Shown here piece by piece: positions 24,907 to 33,706 of a stretch of 64,000 nt of DNA (position 1 is its first letter; each line of letters starts with the position of its first letter). The translations under genes were made by a program, and so were the position numbers. Origin of the DNA: Pigmentiphaga aceris (GTDB lineage: Bacteria; Pseudomonadota; Gammaproteobacteria; Burkholderiales; Burkholderiaceae_B); contig NZ_CP043046.1 of NCBI RefSeq assembly GCF_008119665.1, forward strand, positions 5,022,001-5,086,000, given 5' to 3'. The notes beneath the pieces are model-generated. The model was not told where the DNA came from. It ran no database searches and saw nothing but the letters and a program-made list of their open reading frames with translations.

Positions 24907-25992
24907 TCAAGCCTTCGCCGGGAACACCCAGACCTGCTCGGCCGGCAGCTCAAGACGGTAACGTCCAGGCGCACGATTGACCTGTCCATAGGCCCGCAAG
25001 GCCAGACCTTGCGCCGGATCACCACCTTCGGTGCGGAACAGATATTCCCAACGGTCGCCCAGATACATGCTGGTCAACAAGGGCAGTTCCAGACCATTGC
25101 TGATCTCACCTTCGGTCAGACGAACCTGCTCGACCCGGACCACGGCAATCGCGTTGCTGCCGACTGAAATCCCGTCGCCCGCACGGCCACGCACAGACCA
25201 GCCCTGCCCTTCCACACGCGCCCAGCCGCCTTCGATCGACGTCACCTTGCCAGACAGACGATTGTTGCTGCCCATGAACTCGGCGCAGAAGAGCGTGGCC
25301 GGGCTGCCGTACATTTCCTGCGGCGTGCCCTGCTGTTCGATCTTGCCGTTGTTCAGCAACAGGATGCGATCGGAAATGGCCATGGCCTCGCCCTGATCGT
25401 GCGTCACCATCAGGGCCGACAGGCCCAGACGGATGATCAGTTCACGCAGGAAGGCGCGCGCTTCTTCACGCAGCTTGGCATCCAGGTTGGACAGCGGTTC
25501 GTCCAGCAACAGTACCGGCGGGTTGTAGACCAGCGCACGGCCGATGGCCACGCGCTGCTGCTGACCACCCGACAACTGGAACGGATGACGCTCGCCCAGG
25601 TGACCCAGGCCCAGCTGCTGCAACATCGACTGCACACGCTCGCGGATCTCGGCGGTGGGTACCTTGCGCAACTTCAGTGGGTACGCCACGTTGTCGAACA
25701 CCGTCTTGTGCGGCCACAACGCGTAGGACTGAAACACCAGGCCCAGGTTGCGCTCTTCGGCCAGCACCTCAGTACCGGCTGCACCGTCGAACACGGTGCG
25801 GTCACCGATGCGGATACGTCCCTGGCGAGCCGCTTCCAGCCCGGCCACGGCGCGCAACAAGGTGGTCTTGCCGCTGCCTGAAGGGCCGAGCAAGGAAACA
25901 ACCTCGCCGCGCTTCAGCTGCATCGACACGCCTTTCAGGACAGACACATCACCGTAGCTCAGGTGCAGGTCATCGACGGTAAGTTCAATCAT
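24907..25992 (-). CDS. ABC importer ATP-binding protein (PotA/FbpC/PhnT type, with TOBE domain)
   Basis: 361 aa. Walker A GPSGSGKTTLL, Q-loop VFQSYALWPHKTVFDN, signature LSGGQQQRVAIGRA, Walker B LLLDEPLSNLDAKLREEARAF and switch His MVTHDQGEAMAISD. Residues ~240-361 form a TOBE_2-type regulatory domain (FCAEFMGSNNRLSGKV). This architecture is shared by importers of Fe(III), spermidine/putrescine and 2-aminoethylphosphonate. Its start overlaps the permease stop by 8 bp. The importer follows a two-component system with a binding-protein-fused kinase. Confidence 0.92.
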   Translation of the reverse strand: MIELTVDDLHLSYGDVSVLKGVSMQLKRGEVVSLLGPSGSGKTTLLRAVAGLEAARQGRIRIGDRTVFDGAAGTEVLAEERNLGLVFQSYALWPHKTVFDNVAYPLKLRKVPTAEIRERVQSMLQQLGLGHLGERHPFQLSGGQQQRVAIGRALVYNPPVLLLDEPLSNLDAKLREEARAFLRELIIRLGLSALMVTHDQGEAMAISDRILLLNNGKIEQQGTPQEMYGSPATLFCAEFMGSNNRLSGKVTSIEGGWARVEGQGWSVRGRAGDGISVGSNAIAVVRVEQVRLTEGEISNGLELPLLTSMYLGDRWEYLFRTEGGDPAQGLALRAYGQVNRAPGRYRLELPAEQVWVFPAKA

Positions 25993-27754
25993 GAAGCTTC
26001 ACTCCGAAACGCAGTGCCAGCCCCAGGCCAAGCACGACGAATGCGATATTGATGAAAGACAGGGCAGCAACGATGTCGATCGCGCCCGAGGCCCACAAGG
26101 ACACCAGCATGGACCCGATGGTCTCGGTGCCGGGCGACAGCAGGTAGACGCCCGTTGAGTACTCACGCTCGAAAATCAGGAACATCAGCAGCAGTGCACC
26201 GACCAGGCCATGACGCGCCAGCGGCACGGTCACGTGACGGGTGACCTGACCACGATGGGCACCTGCGGTACGCGCAGCTTCTTCCAGCTCGGGACCGACC
26301 TGCAGCAACGTTGACGAGATGATGCGCAAGCCATACGCCATCCACACCACGGTGTAAGCAAGCCACACGCTGAATATGGTGGAACGGATGCTGCGTAGTG
26401 CGTCAACGAAGTGTTCCTGCAACCATGCGGAATACGGCAGCACCGACAACCAGCCGTCTTCCAGCGAGTTTTCCAGCAGCATCGGCACGAACAGGAATAC
26501 CCACAGGAATGCCAGACCGGCAAGCAGGCCGGGCACGGCACGCGGCACCAGCACGCTGTAGTCCAGGAAGCGGGTAATGCCGTCTGGCTTGCGATGCATG
26601 GCCAGGCCAATGAAGGTGTAGCAGACCACCGCCAGCGCACCGCCGACCACACCGATGGCGACCGAGTTCATGATGGCGCGCAGCAGGTTGGGCTGCGAGA
26701 ACACCGTGCGGAAGGCTTCCACCGACAACACATCGAACAGCGACACACCCATGCCCCAGTTGGACACGAAGGCACGCAGCAACACACCCAGCAAGGGCAC
26801 CACGATGGTGACTGCCAGCCACAGGCCGACCACGGCACCAGCCACCCAGCGCCACTTGCCCAGCGGCAGCGGACGCGAACGCGAGGCCTTGCCCTTGACG
26901 GTGACGAAGCGGTTGGCCGTGCGCATCAGACGACGCTGCAATGCCACCAGCGGAATCGTCATCGCGATCAGCACGACAGCAACTGCGGCCATCAGGTGAT
27001 ACGACGGAATGCCCAGTTTGTTGGTCAGCTTGTACAGGTAGGTGGCCAACACCAGATTGCCTTCCGGGTCACCCAGAACCAGCACCAGACCGAAGACTTC
27101 CAGGCCCAGGAAGAACAGCAGCACGGTGGCGTACAGCATGGCCGGACGCACCATCGGCAGGCTGACTGCGGTCATCACTTGCAGGGGTGAGGCACCCGCC
27201 ACACGTGCGGCTTCTTCTACGTCTGAACCCATGCTTCGCAGCGCGGACGAGATGTAAAGATACGCGTGTGGCACGTGCGTCAGCCCCGCGATGATCACGA
27301 TGCTGGGCAGGGAATAGATGTTCCAGGGAACGAAGCCCAACAGACTTTGTGCCCACGACGAGAAGAAGCCGACCGGGCCGGCTGCCACCACATAGCCGAA
27401 GCCAAGCACCATCGGCGACACGAACACCGGTACCAGAATCAGCGGTTCGATCCAGGTGCGTCCCGGCAGGTCGGTACGACTCATCAGGAAGGCCAGAATG
27501 CCTCCCAACGGGATCGAGAGCGCAGCCAGACCGAAGGCAACCAGGAAACCGGTCTTCAGTGCCTTGTAGAAATCGGGATCATCGAAGATGAAGCGGAACG
27601 CGTCCAGGCTGAACGACTTTGACGGCGCAAAGAACGGGGCCGACAAAAAGCTCTGGAAAACGATCAGCGACAGGGGGGCGTAGATCGCGATCACCGTGAG
27701 CAATACGACCACGCCGCGCGGCAGTGAGCGCCATCTCATTCTTAGTGAATGCAT
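25985..27754 (-). CDS. ABC importer permease, fused double-domain (FbpB/ThiP type)
   Basis: 589 aa from the ATG at 27754 (615 aa from the upstream ATG at 27832, whose extra residues are hydrophilic). Two binding-protein-dependent permease domains are fused, each with an EAA loop: EEAARVAGASPLQVMTAVSLP in the first half and EEAARTAGAHRGQVTRHVTVP in the second. This is the arrangement of Fe(III) and thiamine importers where one polypeptide makes the whole channel. About twelve helices. The ribosome site is weak. It is encoded between the binding protein and the ATPase. Confidence 0.9.
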   Translation of the reverse strand: MHSLRMRWRSLPRGVVVLLTVIAIYAPLSLIVFQSFLSAPFFAPSKSFSLDAFRFIFDDPDFYKALKTGFLVAFGLAALSIPLGGILAFLMSRTDLPGRTWIEPLILVPVFVSPMVLGFGYVVAAGPVGFFSSWAQSLLGFVPWNIYSLPSIVIIAGLTHVPHAYLYISSALRSMGSDVEEAARVAGASPLQVMTAVSLPMVRPAMLYATVLLFFLGLEVFGLVLVLGDPEGNLVLATYLYKLTNKLGIPSYHLMAAVAVVLIAMTIPLVALQRRLMRTANRFVTVKGKASRSRPLPLGKWRWVAGAVVGLWLAVTIVVPLLGVLLRAFVSNWGMGVSLFDVLSVEAFRTVFSQPNLLRAIMNSVAIGVVGGALAVVCYTFIGLAMHRKPDGITRFLDYSVLVPRAVPGLLAGLAFLWVFLFVPMLLENSLEDGWLSVLPYSAWLQEHFVDALRSIRSTIFSVWLAYTVVWMAYGLRIISSTLLQVGPELEEAARTAGAHRGQVTRHVTVPLARHGLVGALLLMFLIFEREYSTGVYLLSPGTETIGSMLVSLWASGAIDIVAALSFINIAFVVLGLGLALRFGVKLHD

Positions 27755-27968
27755 GGAAAGACGTCCATTTTTGAAAACCGCCCGGAGGCGAGGAATGACG
27801 GACTGATGCGACGCATCGGCCCGGCTTGCCAACTTGCTTTGATATCTTGCTTGCTTGTCGTGCTGTGCGACGTGCTTGCGACGTGCCTGGCGATCTGCTG
27901 ATCACCAACTTTTTTCTGGTGCGATTGCGGGCTGTCTGCCGCGCAATCGCACCCTTACTGCCTACCGC

Positions 27969-29069
27969 TTACTTGCCGGCAGCCGTGCGCCATTCCTTGA
28001 TGAAATCAAGACGCGGCTTTTGTTCCAGGTATTCCAGCAGCGATTCGTTGACCGGAATCGGCTTGAGCGCAGCGCCCAGCTTCTTGGTCATGCCGTCCAC
28101 GTCGTTGTCACCCGGAATGTCATCGCGGATCGAACCCAGGTCAGACTGGTTCGCCATGATGTCCTGACCCTTCTGCGACAGCAGGTAGTCCAGCCACAGA
28201 CGTGCGGCGTTCTTGTTGCGCGACTTCTTGCTGATGAAGGACACGCGCGACAGCACCAGGGTGTAGTCGGTGGGGTATGCCACACCAATCGACGGGTCGG
28301 TCTTGGCGCGGGTTTCGGCATACGAACCCAGGATGTTGTAGCCCAGCAGGTTTTCACCCGAGGACACACGTTCCATCATGGTGCCGGTGGACGACTGCAC
28401 CACCAGGCCAGCCTTGCCGGCTGCGGTCACGAACTCGGTGAAGCCCTTGTCGTTGCGCTTGTCCTGCACCGTCAGCATGAAGCCCACGGCCGACTTCTCG
28501 ATGTCGTAGCTGGTGACCTTGCCCTTGTACTTGTCGGTCTGCGTGGTCAGCAGCTTGGCGAACGCGGCGTGGGTAGTGGGCACGTCGGCAGCGGGCACCA
28601 GACGCTTGTTGTAGATGAAGACAGCCGGCTCGTAGGTCGTGCCGTAAGCGCTGTCCTTCCAGTTGGCCCAGGCCGGCAGCTTGGCCGATTCAGGCGACTT
28701 GTAGACCAGTGCATAGTCAACGGCCAGCTTCAGGGCCGAGTCCATCGAGGAACTCCAGACCACGTCGCCGCTGTTGCCACCGGCTGCCTGCTCGCTGATG
28801 TAGCGGTTGTACAGCTCGGTGCTGTTCATGTCGTTATATTCGACCTTGATATCCGGGTACATCGCCTCGAAGCCCTTGACGATGGGGCCGGCTGCCTTGG
28901 TATCGGTGGTCGAATAAATGGTGAGCTTGCCCTCTTTCTTCGCGGCGTCAATCACCTTCTGGTAATCGGCGGGATAGCCCGCAGGAACTTGTGCAAAAGC
29001 AGCGCTGGCGAACAGCGACAGGGCGGTGGCACAAGCGGCGGCCAGGCGAGTAGGGGTGCAGACAGTCAT
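27969..29069 (-). CDS. Periplasmic substrate-binding protein of the iron/polyamine-type importer
   Basis: 366 aa. Signal peptide residues 1-26, cleavage after AFA|QV. The opening KKEGKLTIYSTTD and the block GFEAMYPDIKVEYNDMNSTELYNRY are typical of SBP families containing FbpA, PhnS-like and phosphoglycerate-related proteins. The Tyr pair that binds ferric iron in FbpA is not evident, and no Fur-like box is present in the 99-bp leader, which argues against ferric iron as cargo. The protein is strongly similar along most of its length to residues ~570-890 of the kinase encoded immediately upstream (e.g. LPAWANWK / VPAWARWR, YNILGSYAE / YNVLGSYAL). Confidence 0.92.
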   Translation of the reverse strand: MTVCTPTRLAAACATALSLFASAAFAQVPAGYPADYQKVIDAAKKEGKLTIYSTTDTKAAGPIVKGFEAMYPDIKVEYNDMNSTELYNRYISEQAAGGNSGDVVWSSSMDSALKLAVDYALVYKSPESAKLPAWANWKDSAYGTTYEPAVFIYNKRLVPAADVPTTHAAFAKLLTTQTDKYKGKVTSYDIEKSAVGFMLTVQDKRNDKGFTEFVTAAGKAGLVVQSSTGTMMERVSSGENLLGYNILGSYAETRAKTDPSIGVAYPTDYTLVLSRVSFISKKSRNKNAARLWLDYLLSQKGQDIMANQSDLGSIRDDIPGDNDVDGMTKKLGAALKPIPVNESLLEYLEQKPRLDFIKEWRTAAGK

Positions 29070-29168
29070 GGCGATCTCCAGTGGGGATTCCTTGTGTGTC
29101 GATGCCCCGAAAGTGGGTGCTCGTCACACGTTGAAGCCATCTTAGGAATGCAAGCTGTCAGCGTCCTG

Positions 29169-31904
29169 TCACCGCGCCCGTTTCGCTGGATAACCCTGAG
29201 ACGCTTCTGGCGAATCGGTCACCAAACGCCGCCAGTTCTTCACAAAACGTGCGTGTCGCTGCTGATCCAGCCCCACCAGCAAGGCCGACCCGAACACGAT
29301 CGGCTGCACGATGCCGTGCGGTCCGGCCATCAACGATTCCGAGGTCCAACGCCCGCTCGTTCCGGGCACAATCGACCCCAGCGCAGCCGGGCCAGCCATG
29401 GTTTCCTGTCCGGCTGGCGACAGCAACCAATCGACAAACGCACGCCCCATCTCGGGCGTGGGTGCGGTTCGCAGGATCAGCGCCGAGCGCGACAGCACCG
29501 CCACGTAATCCTGCGGCATCGCCACCGCAATCGGTCGGCCAGCGGCTTCGCGCGCCAGCGCATACGAGCCCAGCACGTTGTAGGCAAGGTCAAGCTCGCC
29601 CGACTCGATCTCGTCAAGAATTGCGGCCGCGGTCGAGTGCAGATGCACGTGGGCGCGACCCAAGGCATTGGCCAAGCCCCAGAAGTTCGAGGACACCACG
29701 GCGTCCTGGCTCGCCAGCAGGTAGGCCAAGCCGCTCGTCGCAATGTCGTAGCTGCCCACCCGGTTGTCCAGCACAGGCAACTGGGTTTCCAGCAGGTTCA
29801 GCAGCGCCTGACGCGAATGCGGCACCGTGTCTGGCGTGAAGCGCTTGGGGTTGTAGACGATCACAATCGGTTCGAAGGTGAAGCCGAACACTTCCGTGCG
29901 CCAACGTGCCCACGCCGGGACGCCCTCGGCATGCCGTGACACATGCGGCAAGGCATAACCGTCATTGGCCAGGCGCACCTGCAAATCGATTGACGAGCTG
30001 ACCAAGACATCGACTGACGGCAGCTTGCCGGCAATCACCTCGCGGTACAGCTCGAAGCCGTTGAGTTCGCGATACACCACGGTCACGTCGGGCCAGCTAC
30101 GCTGGAACTGGCGCGCGATTTCCGTGAACACCACCGTGTCGGTGGGACCTGCGACCGACACGGTGCGATCGAGCAGGTTCTTTTGCGGTGCCGGGTAGAT
30201 CGTCACGTGGCCGGCTGCGGTCGGCCCGGTCACAGAAGACAGTTCGGACGACAAGGCCCCGGGGCCGCGCGCGGCAAGTCCGGCAGGTACTGTGGCCAGG
30301 GTGCCGTCTGCGGTGGTGGGCACTGCTGGTGCCCCAGGGGTTGCAGGTTTTGCCTGTGTATTGGTTGATGCATTAGTTGATGTATTGGTCGATGTATTGG
30401 CCTGCGCCTGCACCACCTGCGGCAGCGTCGTCCACACCATGATCGCCAGCGCCAACGCAGCAAACACACCCGTTTTTGCACGCCCGGCGGCAGCCGGTGC
30501 AGCCAACGGCAACATCACACTCACCACCAGCCCGCCACCGGCCCGCGCGCGCAAGGACAGGCTGCCGCCATGCGCGTCCACCACGTTTCGCACAATCGCC
30601 AGGCCCAAGCCCGACCCAGGCAGGCCCTGCGCGCTGCGACCGCGCTGGAAGCGCTCCAGCACCGTGTCTTTCTCGTCTTCCTGGATGCCCGGGCCACGGT
30701 CGGACACGCTCAACAGCACACGTCCGCCCGGCAGCGCTTGCGCCTCGATATCGACCTCACCATCGGGCGCGTACTGCAAGGCGTTGTCCACCAGATTGCG
30801 CAGCATTTCGCGCAAGGCCACCTTGTCGCCCCGGATGCGGGCGCGTCGAACCTGCGGCGCAATCGCAATGCGCAAACGCCGCTTGCCGTCCATGCCGATG
30901 CGACGACGTGTGTCATTGATGATCTCCGACACCCCAACCGCATCACGGGTCTGTGCGTCCAGCCGGTGTGTGATGGTGGCGTCCATCAACAACTGGTTGA
31001 TCAGCAGGCTGACATGCGAGGCATTGGCCAACACCCGCCCGGCACGCTCGCGCAGACGCACCGGATCGGTTTCTTCCGTCATCACTTCCGCTTGCGCGCG
31101 CAAGGATGCAAGCGGCGTGCGCACCTGGTGCGCAGCATCGGCAACCAGGTTCTGCAACACGGCCATCACCGCACGCAGGCGGCCCATGAAGCTGTCGAGT
31201 GCCTCGGTCAATTGCAGGACTTCGCGCGGCACGGGGGCTTTCAATGGTGCCAGGTCTCCCGGTGCCCGGCTGCGTAGTTCCTGTTCAATCAAGGACAGGG
31301 GCGCGAAGGCACGTTGAATGCCGAACCACAGCAGGCCAAGCGCTACCACCACGATGGCCAGCAGTGGCAAAGCGCTGCGCTGGAATATCTCGGCCGCCAG
31401 TTGGCGACGTGCGCCGCGCGTCTCGGCCACCCGGATCGTCACCCAGCCGATGGACGGACCCGTGGACAACAGACGACCCACGGTGGCGATGCGAACCTCA
31501 TCCCCGCGATAACGCATATTGGCGAACACAGGCACGGAGGAGTTGGCAGGGGCAAGCGTGGCCTCCAGGTCGCCATATCCGGTCACCAGCCCGCCCGAGG
31601 CATCACGCACGCTGTAGAACACGCGTTCGCTGTCACTCAGCATGCCAAGCGCGGCAATCGGCAGTTCCAGAGCAACACCGTCATCTTCGGTCTGCACGGC
31701 CCCTGCGATCGTCAGCGCCGACGCGGCAAGCAAGCGGTCAAAGGCCCGATCCGCGGCCTGGGTGGCATAACTTTCCAGGAATATTAGCAAGGCCAGCCCG
31801 CCGCCCACCAGCAGTGAAATCGCCAGTGAAAAGACCCGACCCCGAATCGACAAGGACTCGGCACGACGAAAAGCGGGTAGCGGGTTTTGCTCAGAGCGTT
31901 TCAT
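29169..31904 (-). CDS. Sensor histidine kinase fused to a C-terminal periplasmic substrate-binding domain
   Basis: 911 aa from ATG 31904 (920 from 31931). In 920 numbering: TM1 ~36-53, periplasmic loop, TM2 ~187-204, HAMP-like, HisKA with H268 in AAHQVRTPLASL (usual E replaced by Q), HATPase with N383 (NLVDNALQYAP), DRGPGI and GSGLGLAIV. Then comes a third hydrophobic segment (~487-506) ending in VVQAQA, a 12-bp-repeat linker (NTSTNTSTNASTNT), and a ~340-residue substrate-binding domain homologous to the importer's SBP. The kinase must be cytoplasmic, so segment three would return the chain to the periplasm or serve as an internal signal peptide cleaved at AQA. The response regulator overlaps upstream; the SBP gene is 99 bp downstream. 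A natural ligand-sensor for the importer is inferred. Confidence 0.93.
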   Translation of the reverse strand: MKRSEQNPLPAFRRAESLSIRGRVFSLAISLLVGGGLALLIFLESYATQAADRAFDRLLAASALTIAGAVQTEDDGVALELPIAALGMLSDSERVFYSVRDASGGLVTGYGDLEATLAPANSSVPVFANMRYRGDEVRIATVGRLLSTGPSIGWVTIRVAETRGARRQLAAEIFQRSALPLLAIVVVALGLLWFGIQRAFAPLSLIEQELRSRAPGDLAPLKAPVPREVLQLTEALDSFMGRLRAVMAVLQNLVADAAHQVRTPLASLRAQAEVMTEETDPVRLRERAGRVLANASHVSLLINQLLMDATITHRLDAQTRDAVGVSEIINDTRRRIGMDGKRRLRIAIAPQVRRARIRGDKVALREMLRNLVDNALQYAPDGEVDIEAQALPGGRVLLSVSDRGPGIQEDEKDTVLERFQRGRSAQGLPGSGLGLAIVRNVVDAHGGSLSLRARAGGGLVVSVMLPLAAPAAAGRAKTGVFAALALAIMVWTTLPQVVQAQANTSTNTSTNASTNTQAKPATPGAPAVPTTADGTLATVPAGLAARGPGALSSELSSVTGPTAAGHVTIYPAPQKNLLDRTVSVAGPTDTVVFTEIARQFQRSWPDVTVVYRELNGFELYREVIAGKLPSVDVLVSSSIDLQVRLANDGYALPHVSRHAEGVPAWARWRTEVFGFTFEPIVIVYNPKRFTPDTVPHSRQALLNLLETQLPVLDNRVGSYDIATSGLAYLLASQDAVVSSNFWGLANALGRAHVHLHSTAAAILDEIESGELDLAYNVLGSYALAREAAGRPIAVAMPQDYVAVLSRSALILRTAPTPEMGRAFVDWLLSPAGQETMAGPAALGSIVPGTSGRWTSESLMAGPHGIVQPIVFGSALLVGLDQQRHARFVKNWRRLVTDSPEASQGYPAKRAR
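30358..30405 (-). repeat. 12-bp tandem repeat in the kinase-SBP linker
   Basis: Four units with consensus GTATTGGTTGAT on plus (30358-30369, 30370-30381, 30382-30393, 30394-30405; the last diverged). On the coding strand each adds about four residues of the N/T/S/A linker. Confidence 0.8.
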
Positions 31905-32562
31905 GCGATCGCGCCTGATAGCCCACGCCACGCACCGTCACGATATCGATGGAACAGTCACCAAGTTTCTTGCGCAGGCGCGACACCAGCAACTCAAGCG
32001 CGTTGGTGGACACGTCTTCAACCTGGAACATCTGTGTCATCAGGCGCTCCTTGGCGACCGTCTGACCAATGTGCGCCAGCAACACTTCCAGCAGGCCGAA
32101 TTCGCGGCGTCCCAGATCAAGCAGCACTCCATCGACCGTGGCCGTGCGTCCGGCCAGATCGATGGCCAGGTTGCCGTATTGCACCGCACTGCTGCTTTGT
32201 CCGGCTGGCCGGCGCATCAGTGCACGCAAGCGGGCTTCCAGTTCACGCAGGTCGAAGGGTTTGACCAGGTAATCGTCGGCTCCCAGGTCGAGCATATCGA
32301 CCTTGTCTTCGATTTCCGCCCGCGCCGTCACCACCAGGACCGGGGTGTCCTGGCCCGATGCCCGCAGCGATCGCAGCACCGCAAAGCCGTCTTTGCCTGG
32401 CAGCATGATGTCGAGCACGATGGCATCCCAGGTGCCGTGCCGACTCCAGGAAATGGCCGCGTCGCCGTCGCGCACCCACTCGACCGAATGGCCCGCCAGA
32501 CGCAGTTTGCTCTCGACCGCATCGCCCAGATCAGCGTTGTCCTCTACCAACAATATGCGCAC
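31891..32562 (-). CDS. OmpR-family response regulator (TctD/PmrA-like)
   Basis: 223 aa. Receiver: acidic cluster E7-D8-N9 with D12, phospho-acceptor D51 (VLDIMLPGKDGF), T-loop VTARAEIEDK and K in DDYLVKPFDL. The winged helix (~125-220) has LGRREFGLLEVLL and VSTNALELLVSRLRKKL. The last codons overlap the kinase start, so regulator and kinase are translationally coupled. Likely activates the downstream ABC importer genes; no repeat element comparable to the ygiW site was found in the leaders here. Confidence 0.92.
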   Translation of the reverse strand: MRILLVEDNADLGDAVESKLRLAGHSVEWVRDGDAAISWSRHGTWDAIVLDIMLPGKDGFAVLRSLRASGQDTPVLVVTARAEIEDKVDMLDLGADDYLVKPFDLRELEARLRALMRRPAGQSSSAVQYGNLAIDLAGRTATVDGVLLDLGRREFGLLEVLLAHIGQTVAKERLMTQMFQVEDVSTNALELLVSRLRKKLGDCSIDIVTVRGVGYQARSHETL

Positions 32563-32710: not shown

Positions 32711-33706
32711 ATGTCTCGCTACCTGCCCGATCGCTTTACCGTTGCCATCATTCTCACGGTCATTCTGGCCAGCTTCCTGCCAGCATCCGGCAAGGGCGCG
32801 CAGATATTCGAAGTCATCACGAACGTCGCCGTCGGCGTACTGTTCTTCATGCACGGTGCCAAGCTGTCGCGCGAAGCGATCATTGCAGGGGTCACGCATT
32901 GGCGGCTGCACCTGGTGGTGTTCCTGTCCACCTTCGTTCTGTTCCCGGTGCTGGGCTTGACGCTCAAGCCCGTGCTGTCGTGGCTGATGACCCCGGAACT
33001 GTATGTGGGCATCCTGTTCCTGTGCGCGCTGCCCTCGACCGTACAGTCGTCAATTGCACTGACGGCAGTGGCGCGTGGCAACGTACCGGCCGCCGTCTGC
33101 AGTGCCTCGTTCTCCAGCCTGATCGGGATTTTCCTGACACCGGTGCTGGTCGGCATCTTTGTGGTGCCGCATGGTGGGCATATTTCCTTCGAGGCCGTCA
33201 CCAAGATCTTCGTGCAGTTGCTGCTGCCCTTCATCGTGGGCCACCTGATGCGTCCGCTGATCGGCAAATTCATCGACAAGCACAAGGCAACGCTCAAATA
33301 CGTGGACCAAAGCTCCATCCTGCTGGTGGTCTACACCGCCTTCAGCGCGGCTGTCATCGAAGGCCTGTGGCAGAACACGCCCGCCAGCACCCTGATCGGC
33401 GTGATCGTCGCCACCTCCATCCTGCTTGCCATTGCCCTGTTCATCACCTGGCAGACCGGCAAGCGCCTGGGCTTCTCGAAGGCGGACCAGATCACCATCC
33501 TGTTCTGCGGCTCCAAAAAGAGCCTGGCCACCGGAGCCCCGATGGCCAAGGTGCTGTTTGCCAGCTCGGCCGTTGGGGCCATCGTGCTGCCGGTGATGAT
33601 CTTTCACCAGGTCCAGCTGATGTTGTGCGCCATGATCGCGCAACACTACGCGCGCCGGCCGGAAGAAGACGCCAAGAAAATCATTGATGCCGCCGCCCAA
33701 CCTTGA
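32711..33706 (+). CDS. Bile acid:sodium symporter-like protein (SLC10A7 type)
   Basis: 331 aa with about ten membrane helices. Blocks LFFMHGAKLSREAIIAG, LCALPSTVQSSIALTAVARGNVPAA and CGSKKSLATGAPMA are typical of the SLC10A7/YfeH branch (PF13593); the S-x-S-S/A and GSKKSLATG segments correspond to the discontinuous-helix crossing and the sodium/substrate site. No physiological cargo has been established for bacterial members. The gene is alone, starting 148 bp from the divergent response regulator, and is followed by an M20 peptidase 119 bp downstream. Confidence 0.85.
   Translation: MSRYLPDRFTVAIILTVILASFLPASGKGAQIFEVITNVAVGVLFFMHGAKLSREAIIAGVTHWRLHLVVFLSTFVLFPVLGLTLKPVLSWLMTPELYVGILFLCALPSTVQSSIALTAVARGNVPAAVCSASFSSLIGIFLTPVLVGIFVVPHGGHISFEAVTKIFVQLLLPFIVGHLMRPLIGKFIDKHKATLKYVDQSSILLVVYTAFSAAVIEGLWQNTPASTLIGVIVATSILLAIALFITWQTGKRLGFSKADQITILFCGSKKSLATGAPMAKVLFASSAVGAIVLPVMIFHQVQLMLCAMIAQHYARRPEEDAKKIIDAAAQP

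Follow-up and report, generated by a model that had tools for sequence, protein, structure and literature searches.

The gene described here belongs to Pigmentiphaga aceris and was found in a stretch of 64,000 bases (the window), which covers positions 5022001-5086000 of a genome of 6,165,255 bases held in a single contig. At 29169-31904 of the window, on the minus strand, one reading frame joins a sensor histidine kinase to a solute-binding protein (SBP) domain. The predicted product has 911 residues from the ATG at 31904, and 920 from an alternative GTG start at 31931; the frame is unbroken from either start to the stop at 29169. Residues are numbered on the 911-residue version, the longer version having nine more.

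Organization of the locus

Pfam domains were matched along the chain in the order 2CSK_N (3.5e-34), HisKA (3.2e-10), HATPase_c (7.5e-26) and SBP_bac_11 (5.7e-17). All coordinates that follow are on the minus strand. A first transmembrane segment (TM1, 31770-31835, about residues 24-45) and a second (TM2, 31311-31373, about residues 178-198), both recognized from sequence and hydrophobicity, frame the 2CSK_N sensor domain, whose Pfam match extends over 31386-31796 (residues 37-173, or 46-182 in the 920-residue version). HisKA (30969-31154, residues 251-312) carries the phospho-acceptor H259 and is followed by HATPase_c (30501-30830, residues 359-468), both delimited by Pfam and alignment. Next come a third hydrophobic segment (30405-30482, residues 475-500), which we read as an internal signal peptide with a predicted cut after A500, a linker (30210-30404, residues 501-565) with disorder predicted to residue 564, and the solute-binding domain (29172-30209, residues 566-911), identified by Pfam, a structural model and structural comparison. 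The linker starts, right after the predicted cut (30339-30404), with a short N/S/T-rich repeat that is not shared by the other proteins compared. The first-pass annotation had given the same order with a HAMP domain in addition, a label left unconfirmed by Pfam, since HAMP is absent from the eight families returned. Its union of kinase, third hydrophobic segment and SBP in a single chain is borne out by the uninterrupted frame and the ordered Pfam matches, and the frame break that it feared between residues ~480 and ~570 is absent, the frame being open throughout. Structure prediction gave a full-length model too poor for placing the SBP domain (predicted local distance difference test 59.3, predicted template-modelling score 0.36).

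A full-length alignment was made of 40 of the 120 matches listed in the search described below, the window's protein included. Residues H259, N370, N374, D402, G404, G406, G430, G432 and G434 are invariant across these 40 proteins. With 2CSK_N, HisKA and HATPase_c above cut-off and its catalytic residues intact, the front half is by sequence a TctE-like class I sensor kinase. No named kinase equivalog of NCBIfam exceeded its curated cut-off among the 25 of 79 models viewed, the best being PmrB (134.2 against 314) and QseC (134.2 against 475).

The kinase gene lies in a row of genes on the same strand. An OmpR-type response regulator (31891-32562) overlaps the kinase start by 14 bases. It is made of Response_reg and Trans_reg_C (Pfam), and TctD tops its NCBIfam list with 195.3 bits, below the equivalog cut-off of 337. 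On the other side, the importer's own SBP (27969-29069, 366 residues, Pfam) begins 99 bases past the stop of the kinase::SBP gene. It is followed by an ATP-binding cassette (ABC) permease with two BPD_transp_1 stretches in a single chain (25985-27832) and by the ABC ATPase (24907-25992), both identified by Pfam and NCBIfam. This arrangement recurs in the window's family, where 39 fused loci (L079-L085, L088-L112, L116-L122) were taken together with long flanks. Every one of them has the regulator and an SBP of the importer type as neighbours; the permease is likewise adjacent at 38 loci and the ATPase at 37, and the missing cases fall at stretch ends. In the Alphaproteobacteria, the regulator adjoins all 11 fused loci.

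Some further features of the region were recorded. A gene for an SBF-like transporter (PF13593) lies at 32711-33706 on the plus strand, divergent beside the regulator. Three Inquilinus-like loci (L194, L221, L229) have homologues upstream of the regulator; none was detected at 100 bits in the Achromobacter-type loci examined. Frame breaks in operon genes occur at three loci: L078 has them in the SBP and the permease, L093 in the permease and L097 in the importer SBP. Between 28900 and 33000, a promoter scan found 0 sites for 0.6 expected, and five terminator-like sites were counted for 3.0 expected. The guanine-plus-cytosine content at 28001-32000 is 0.630; it lies inside the range of the window (0.590-0.644), so a foreign origin of this DNA is unsupported.

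Distribution of the fused gene

The whole protein, used as query, matched 842 of 8000 scored candidates at E <= 1e-3. All of the best 120 of these 842 have both PF02518 (HATPase_c) and PF13531 (SBP_bac_11). Achromobacter is the commonest organism name among the matches listed, and the nearest ones, 83-89% identical, come from metagenome sources. Such proteins are named in their sources either "extracellular solute-binding protein" or "sensor histidine kinase", each name masking one half.

In the window's family 268 genomes were searched, and 78 of them, in 12 of 43 genera, match at E <= 1e-70, some through the kinase alone. Kinase and SBP in a single frame were found at 71 loci in 53 family genomes. 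Removal of near-copies reduced these to 51 rows, one of which (L041) repeats L025; the remaining 50, one per genome, represent ten genera including the window's own. The window's genus itself is patchy: none of its 10 other listed genomes matches at E <= 1e-70, although metagenome proteins reach the identities given above. Farther away matches become rare. The window's own genome is the sole match at 1e-90 among 369 genomes of the class, and six match at 1e-70 among 398 genomes of the phylum: the window's own, one with a split locus (G434) and four of family f63.

Named genomes were scanned with two peptide patterns taken from the kinase, which does not amount to a census. Of 75 loci so obtained, 56 are fused, 2 belong to Bartonella, 2 are split, 2 are cut by contig ends and 13 are weak kinase matches. 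The fused ones belong to Achromobacter, Bordetella, Alcaligenes, Castellaniella, Pollutimonas and relatives, and, among Alphaproteobacteria, to Labrys, Inquilinus, Aureimonas and a Pseudoxanthobacter metagenome-assembled genome (MAG). One record that falls in with Inquilinus bears the title Mycobacterium sp. KBS0706, probably in error. The search for HATPase_c followed by an SBP in other genomes, suggested by the first-pass annotation, is thus answered positively, in ten genera of the family and in Alphaproteobacteria. An assembly join or frame error at this locus can be dismissed as having a negligible chance, since the same fusion recurs in the 53 family genomes and at the 56 named-genome loci, and nothing was found in its favour.

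The junction between kinase and solute-binding domain

Over the 117 residues from 468 to 584, only R475 and A500 are invariant across the 40 aligned proteins. They are 25 residues apart and flank a hydrophobic core and a Pro-rich tail; by their positions they look like the positive charge and the -1 Ala of a Sec signal peptide. The stretch from HATPase_c to the SBP domain is otherwise variable in length and sequence, with 22-90 residues (median 31, 49 rows) between the predicted cut and a fixed SBP column.

A strict rule for signal-peptidase-like sites, written after the junctions had been seen, was applied to the 50 rows, with TM1 of the same proteins, which faces the same way as the junction segment, as control. 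It finds a site in 48 of the 50 junctions against 3 of the 50 TM1 segments. When the demand for Pro or Gly is dropped, these figures become 50/50 and 28/50. Shuffled junction regions show a site in a mean of 18.6 out of 48. In the alphaproteobacterial proteins, where sites were counted at the junction only, 10 of 11 junctions satisfy the strict rule and 11 of 11 the relaxed one, and the SBP starts a few residues past the site. The features of a signal-peptidase-I substrate (positive n-region, hydrophobic core, small-x-Ala) are thus present in the sequence, though weak when scored with a trained matrix. The third segment resembles an internal signal peptide, and cleavage of the chain at the junction, predicted after A500, is in our view fairly likely.

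Besides the late writing of the rule, several results weigh against this reading of the junction. With the relaxed rule, sites are called on the HATPase side too in 4 of the 11 alphaproteobacterial rows. A site matrix trained on TctC (14 leaders out of 25 TctC matches) separates poorly: junctions have a median score of 4.7, TM1 segments of the same proteins 0.9 and those of other kinases 2.4 (20 controls taken, 4 of them having no TM1 by the criterion used), compared with medians of 8.7 for the training leaders, each scored with itself left out, and 7.3 for SBPs of the importer type. The junction of the window's protein scores 4.1, and TM1 maxima reach 6.7 and 7.7. Finally, an uncharged run of at least 18 residues, enough for an anchor, is present in 26 of 48 junctions.

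Relatives with a separate receptor gene

At seven loci of the order, regulator, kinase and SBP are separate neighbouring genes. Four of them (L086, L113, L114, L115) belong to the window's family, and the leaders of their receptors are Sec-like by eye. The other three (L068, L069, L071) belong to another family of the order and show, again by eye, paired arginines as in leaders of the twin-arginine translocation (Tat) pathway, in contrast with the Sec-like leaders of the nearer relatives. Two genomes with a split locus, G025 and G038, also hold a fused operon. The four f63 genomes have a separate SBP frame beside the kinase, with short Sec-like leaders. Overall, Sec- or Tat-like leaders were recognized in 11 split loci (L086, L113-L115, L068, L069, L071, L248-L251). 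These labels come from inspection, because the automatic site rule marks 5 of 13 typed split leaders, one of them (L233) past a lipobox.

Other relatives depart from this picture. Two split MAG loci have receptors with a long hydrophobic N-terminus (L232) or a lipobox (L233). In the Bartonella loci L228 and L230 the regulator comes first, then a separate SBP and then the kinase, and importer genes run in the opposite direction; the N-terminus of their SBP is anchor-like and has no cut site.

Origin of the fusion

Trees of the SBP and of the kinase were built with 28 fused rows. In the SBP tree, the 28 fused and seven split receptors form one side, opposite 28 importer SBPs plus 13 from divergently arranged systems, with a support of 99 in the Shimodaira-Hasegawa-like approximate likelihood-ratio test (SH-aLRT), and the fused receptors group together (SH-aLRT 98). 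The kinase tree is concordant (99 and 99). In later trees, made with 15 family rows and 9 of the 11 alphaproteobacterial rows and rooted on divergent systems, the 24 fused kinases and the two Bartonella kinases form one branch (SH-aLRT 96; bootstrap 98 and SH-aLRT 94 in a second tree). The Bartonella kinases are placed beside Aureimonas at 92/88. The approximately unbiased test does not reject a grouping of the 24 fused kinases that excludes Bartonella (p = 0.195). The simplest account of these trees, in which several forks are weak, would be that adjacent genes fused once, together with the leader, and that the fusion may later have been split in Bartonella. The SBP of the kinase diverges faster than that of the importer, with mean identities of 0.605 and 0.741 over 351 genome pairs.

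The solute-binding domain and its ligand

Among solved structures, the MctA metal-citrate-binding proteins (PDB 7f6e to 7f6u) and 3c9h are closest to the SBP domain, both in sequence and in the model. MctA is the closest one with a named ligand, taken from entry titles. Kinship to MctA is established by sequence and by the fold of the model, which was compared with PDB entries by VIA-align. The MctA proteins themselves stand alone as SBPs, and their identity to the domain of the kinase is about 30%. No paper on the PDB 7f6 entries was found in the literature search. The SBP alignment comprised 21 pieces. Six residues are mutated in MctA entries; four of the six are kept in the kinase's SBP and five in the importer SBP. 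A citrate-like ligand, whether citrate itself, citrate complexed with a metal or a small carboxylate of a similar kind, is proposed only tentatively. Two facts tell against it: the ligand role of the six residues is itself derived from entry titles, and the D28 column holds S in 4 of 9 split receptors.

Two other ligands were considered. A 2-aminoethylphosphonate SBP is rejected, the corresponding NCBIfam scores being 26.7 bits for the importer SBP and 10.6 for the kinase's SBP against a cut-off of 392.75. Ferric-iron binding of the FbpA type seems less likely, as that group lies some ten Z units below 3c9h and MctA.

Proposed mechanism and alternatives

We propose, with a probability of roughly 0.55, that the gene encodes the precursor of a three-component sensor, which would be cut at an internal signal peptide to yield a kinase in the membrane and a receptor free of it. 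The third segment would enter the Sec machinery and bring the SBP to the periplasm. Signal peptidase I would then cut after A500, so that the kinase stays in the membrane and the SBP is set free, receptor and kinase thereby being produced 1:1. The loaded SBP would dock on the 2CSK_N domain and alter kinase activity, and the regulator would in turn change importer expression. That the domain is a dedicated signalling SBP is highly probable. Because the importer adjoins the gene and its SBP is 33.6% identical to that of the kinase (112/333 columns), sensing of the importer's ligand or of a close one seems plausible here. Extended to the whole kinase family, the proposal is that these proteins are made as polyproteins: signal peptidase would release a receptor whose export is directed by an internal signal peptide following the ATPase domain, giving one soluble receptor per kinase; the fusion would have arisen perhaps once from adjacent genes, the leader being kept, and may have been split again in Bartonella, with the receptor ahead of the kinase. 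We give this broader view even odds.

Two sets of observations count against the proposal as well. Membrane-held receptors do occur among relatives, to judge from the two anchor-like Bartonella loci and the lipobox of L233. Moreover, importer genes were seen at none of the 11 alphaproteobacterial fused loci at >=100 bits, and beside none of the seven split loci of the order at the 100-bit cut-off. Since the alphaproteobacterial fused loci show no importer genes, the importer tie is a trait of the window's family and not of the whole fusion family.

Among the alternatives, an uncut tether survives best. The third segment would then be a true transmembrane helix and the SBP, still joined to the kinase in the periplasm, would sense in cis or within the kinase dimer. 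This is close to the first-pass annotation, which had the protein sensing the importer's ligand in cis: the ligand part remains plausible, while a lasting tether is disfavoured given the junction signal and the relatives with a separate receptor gene. The frame is still fused across ten genera and in Alphaproteobacteria, the signalling SBPs of some relatives (L228, L230, L233) look membrane-held and the 26 long junction runs would suffice for spanning. However, a tether leaves the conserved small-x-Ala site and the invariant A500 without evident use, the two anchor-like Bartonella N-termini have no such site, and the 11 split loci have Sec- or Tat-like leaders by eye. From the conserved export-and-cleavage-like junction and the relatives with a separate receptor gene we therefore prefer a cut precursor, and regard the tether as unlikely.

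The SBP part could also be a second transport receptor for the importer, kept at equal dosage with a kinase that senses otherwise, for example via the importer's own SBP. The adjacent importer at all 39 long-flank loci of the family fits this view, as does the identity of 54 of the 76 columns conserved in both SBP groups. But kinase and receptor remain together at the loci with no importer genes seen, the 11 alphaproteobacterial fused and seven split ones, and fused and split receptors form a group apart from importer SBPs; this explanation appears improbable. An internal start ahead of the leader, which would make the SBP also or only, with the fused chain as a by-product, is very improbable: the region before the leader offers an in-frame ATG (residue 464) as well as several GTG or TTG codons, but no ribosome-site-like sequence was flagged before any start up to residue 500, the sole flagged start being residue 528.

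Relation to known systems

The regulator of the PgtABC system is of the NtrC type. The regulator of the present system consists of Response_reg and Trans_reg_C and so differs from it. In Salmonella, the sensor protein PgtC, the kinase PgtB and the regulator PgtA, which are separate proteins, jointly switch on a transporter, and the substrate is 3-phosphoglycerate (PMC11077982). The resemblance to Pgt suggested by the first-pass annotation thus holds in logic; it fails in the separate nature of PgtC, PgtB and PgtA and in the type of regulator, the nearest here being TctD, below cut-off.

By gene content, the system is a variant of the SBP-kinase-regulator three-component systems, with SBP and kinase fused here and side by side in split relatives. 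The CuaDSR system of Ruminiclostridium cellulolyticum is similar in having a dedicated signalling SBP besides the importer's SBP, and kinase and regulator beside an ABC importer; its signalling SBP binds the outer domain of the kinase in a two-hybrid test. It differs in being made of three separate genes, with a lipoprotein SBP for cellobiose (PMC10384115). In Bordetella pertussis, citrate-loaded BctC acts on the periplasmic domain of the kinase BctE and raises transporter expression; BctC, unlike the present domain, is a separate TctC-family SBP serving a tripartite transporter (PMC9602780). BvgS and EvgS do combine binding-protein-like domains and a kinase in a single chain. There these domains are periplasmic and ahead of the kinase (PMC8534201), whereas here the SBP comes after HATPase_c and the N-terminal sensor is 2CSK_N.

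Searches of one open library, most subscription journals being outside it, listed no title or abstract with an SBP after the ATPase domain of a kinase, and no kinase with an internal leader was met there. The FbcH cytochrome b/c1 precursor of Bradyrhizobium is a known case of a single gene whose internal signal sequence allows two products, membrane or periplasmic, to be made; it is respiratory and not a signalling protein. Kinase-SBP chains have already been counted earlier, because an Azospirillum survey lists SBP_bac_1 among the input domains of classic kinases, though its position in the chain is not stated (PMC4618731).

A natural fusion tells which SBP pairs with which kinase. Gene neighbourhood alone misled such pairing in Pseudomonas aeruginosa (PMC11113362). 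The proposed precursor also raises the question of a histidine kinase acting as the front half of a signal-peptidase substrate. If true, it would represent a new way of fixing the receptor:kinase ratio in SBP-dependent signalling.
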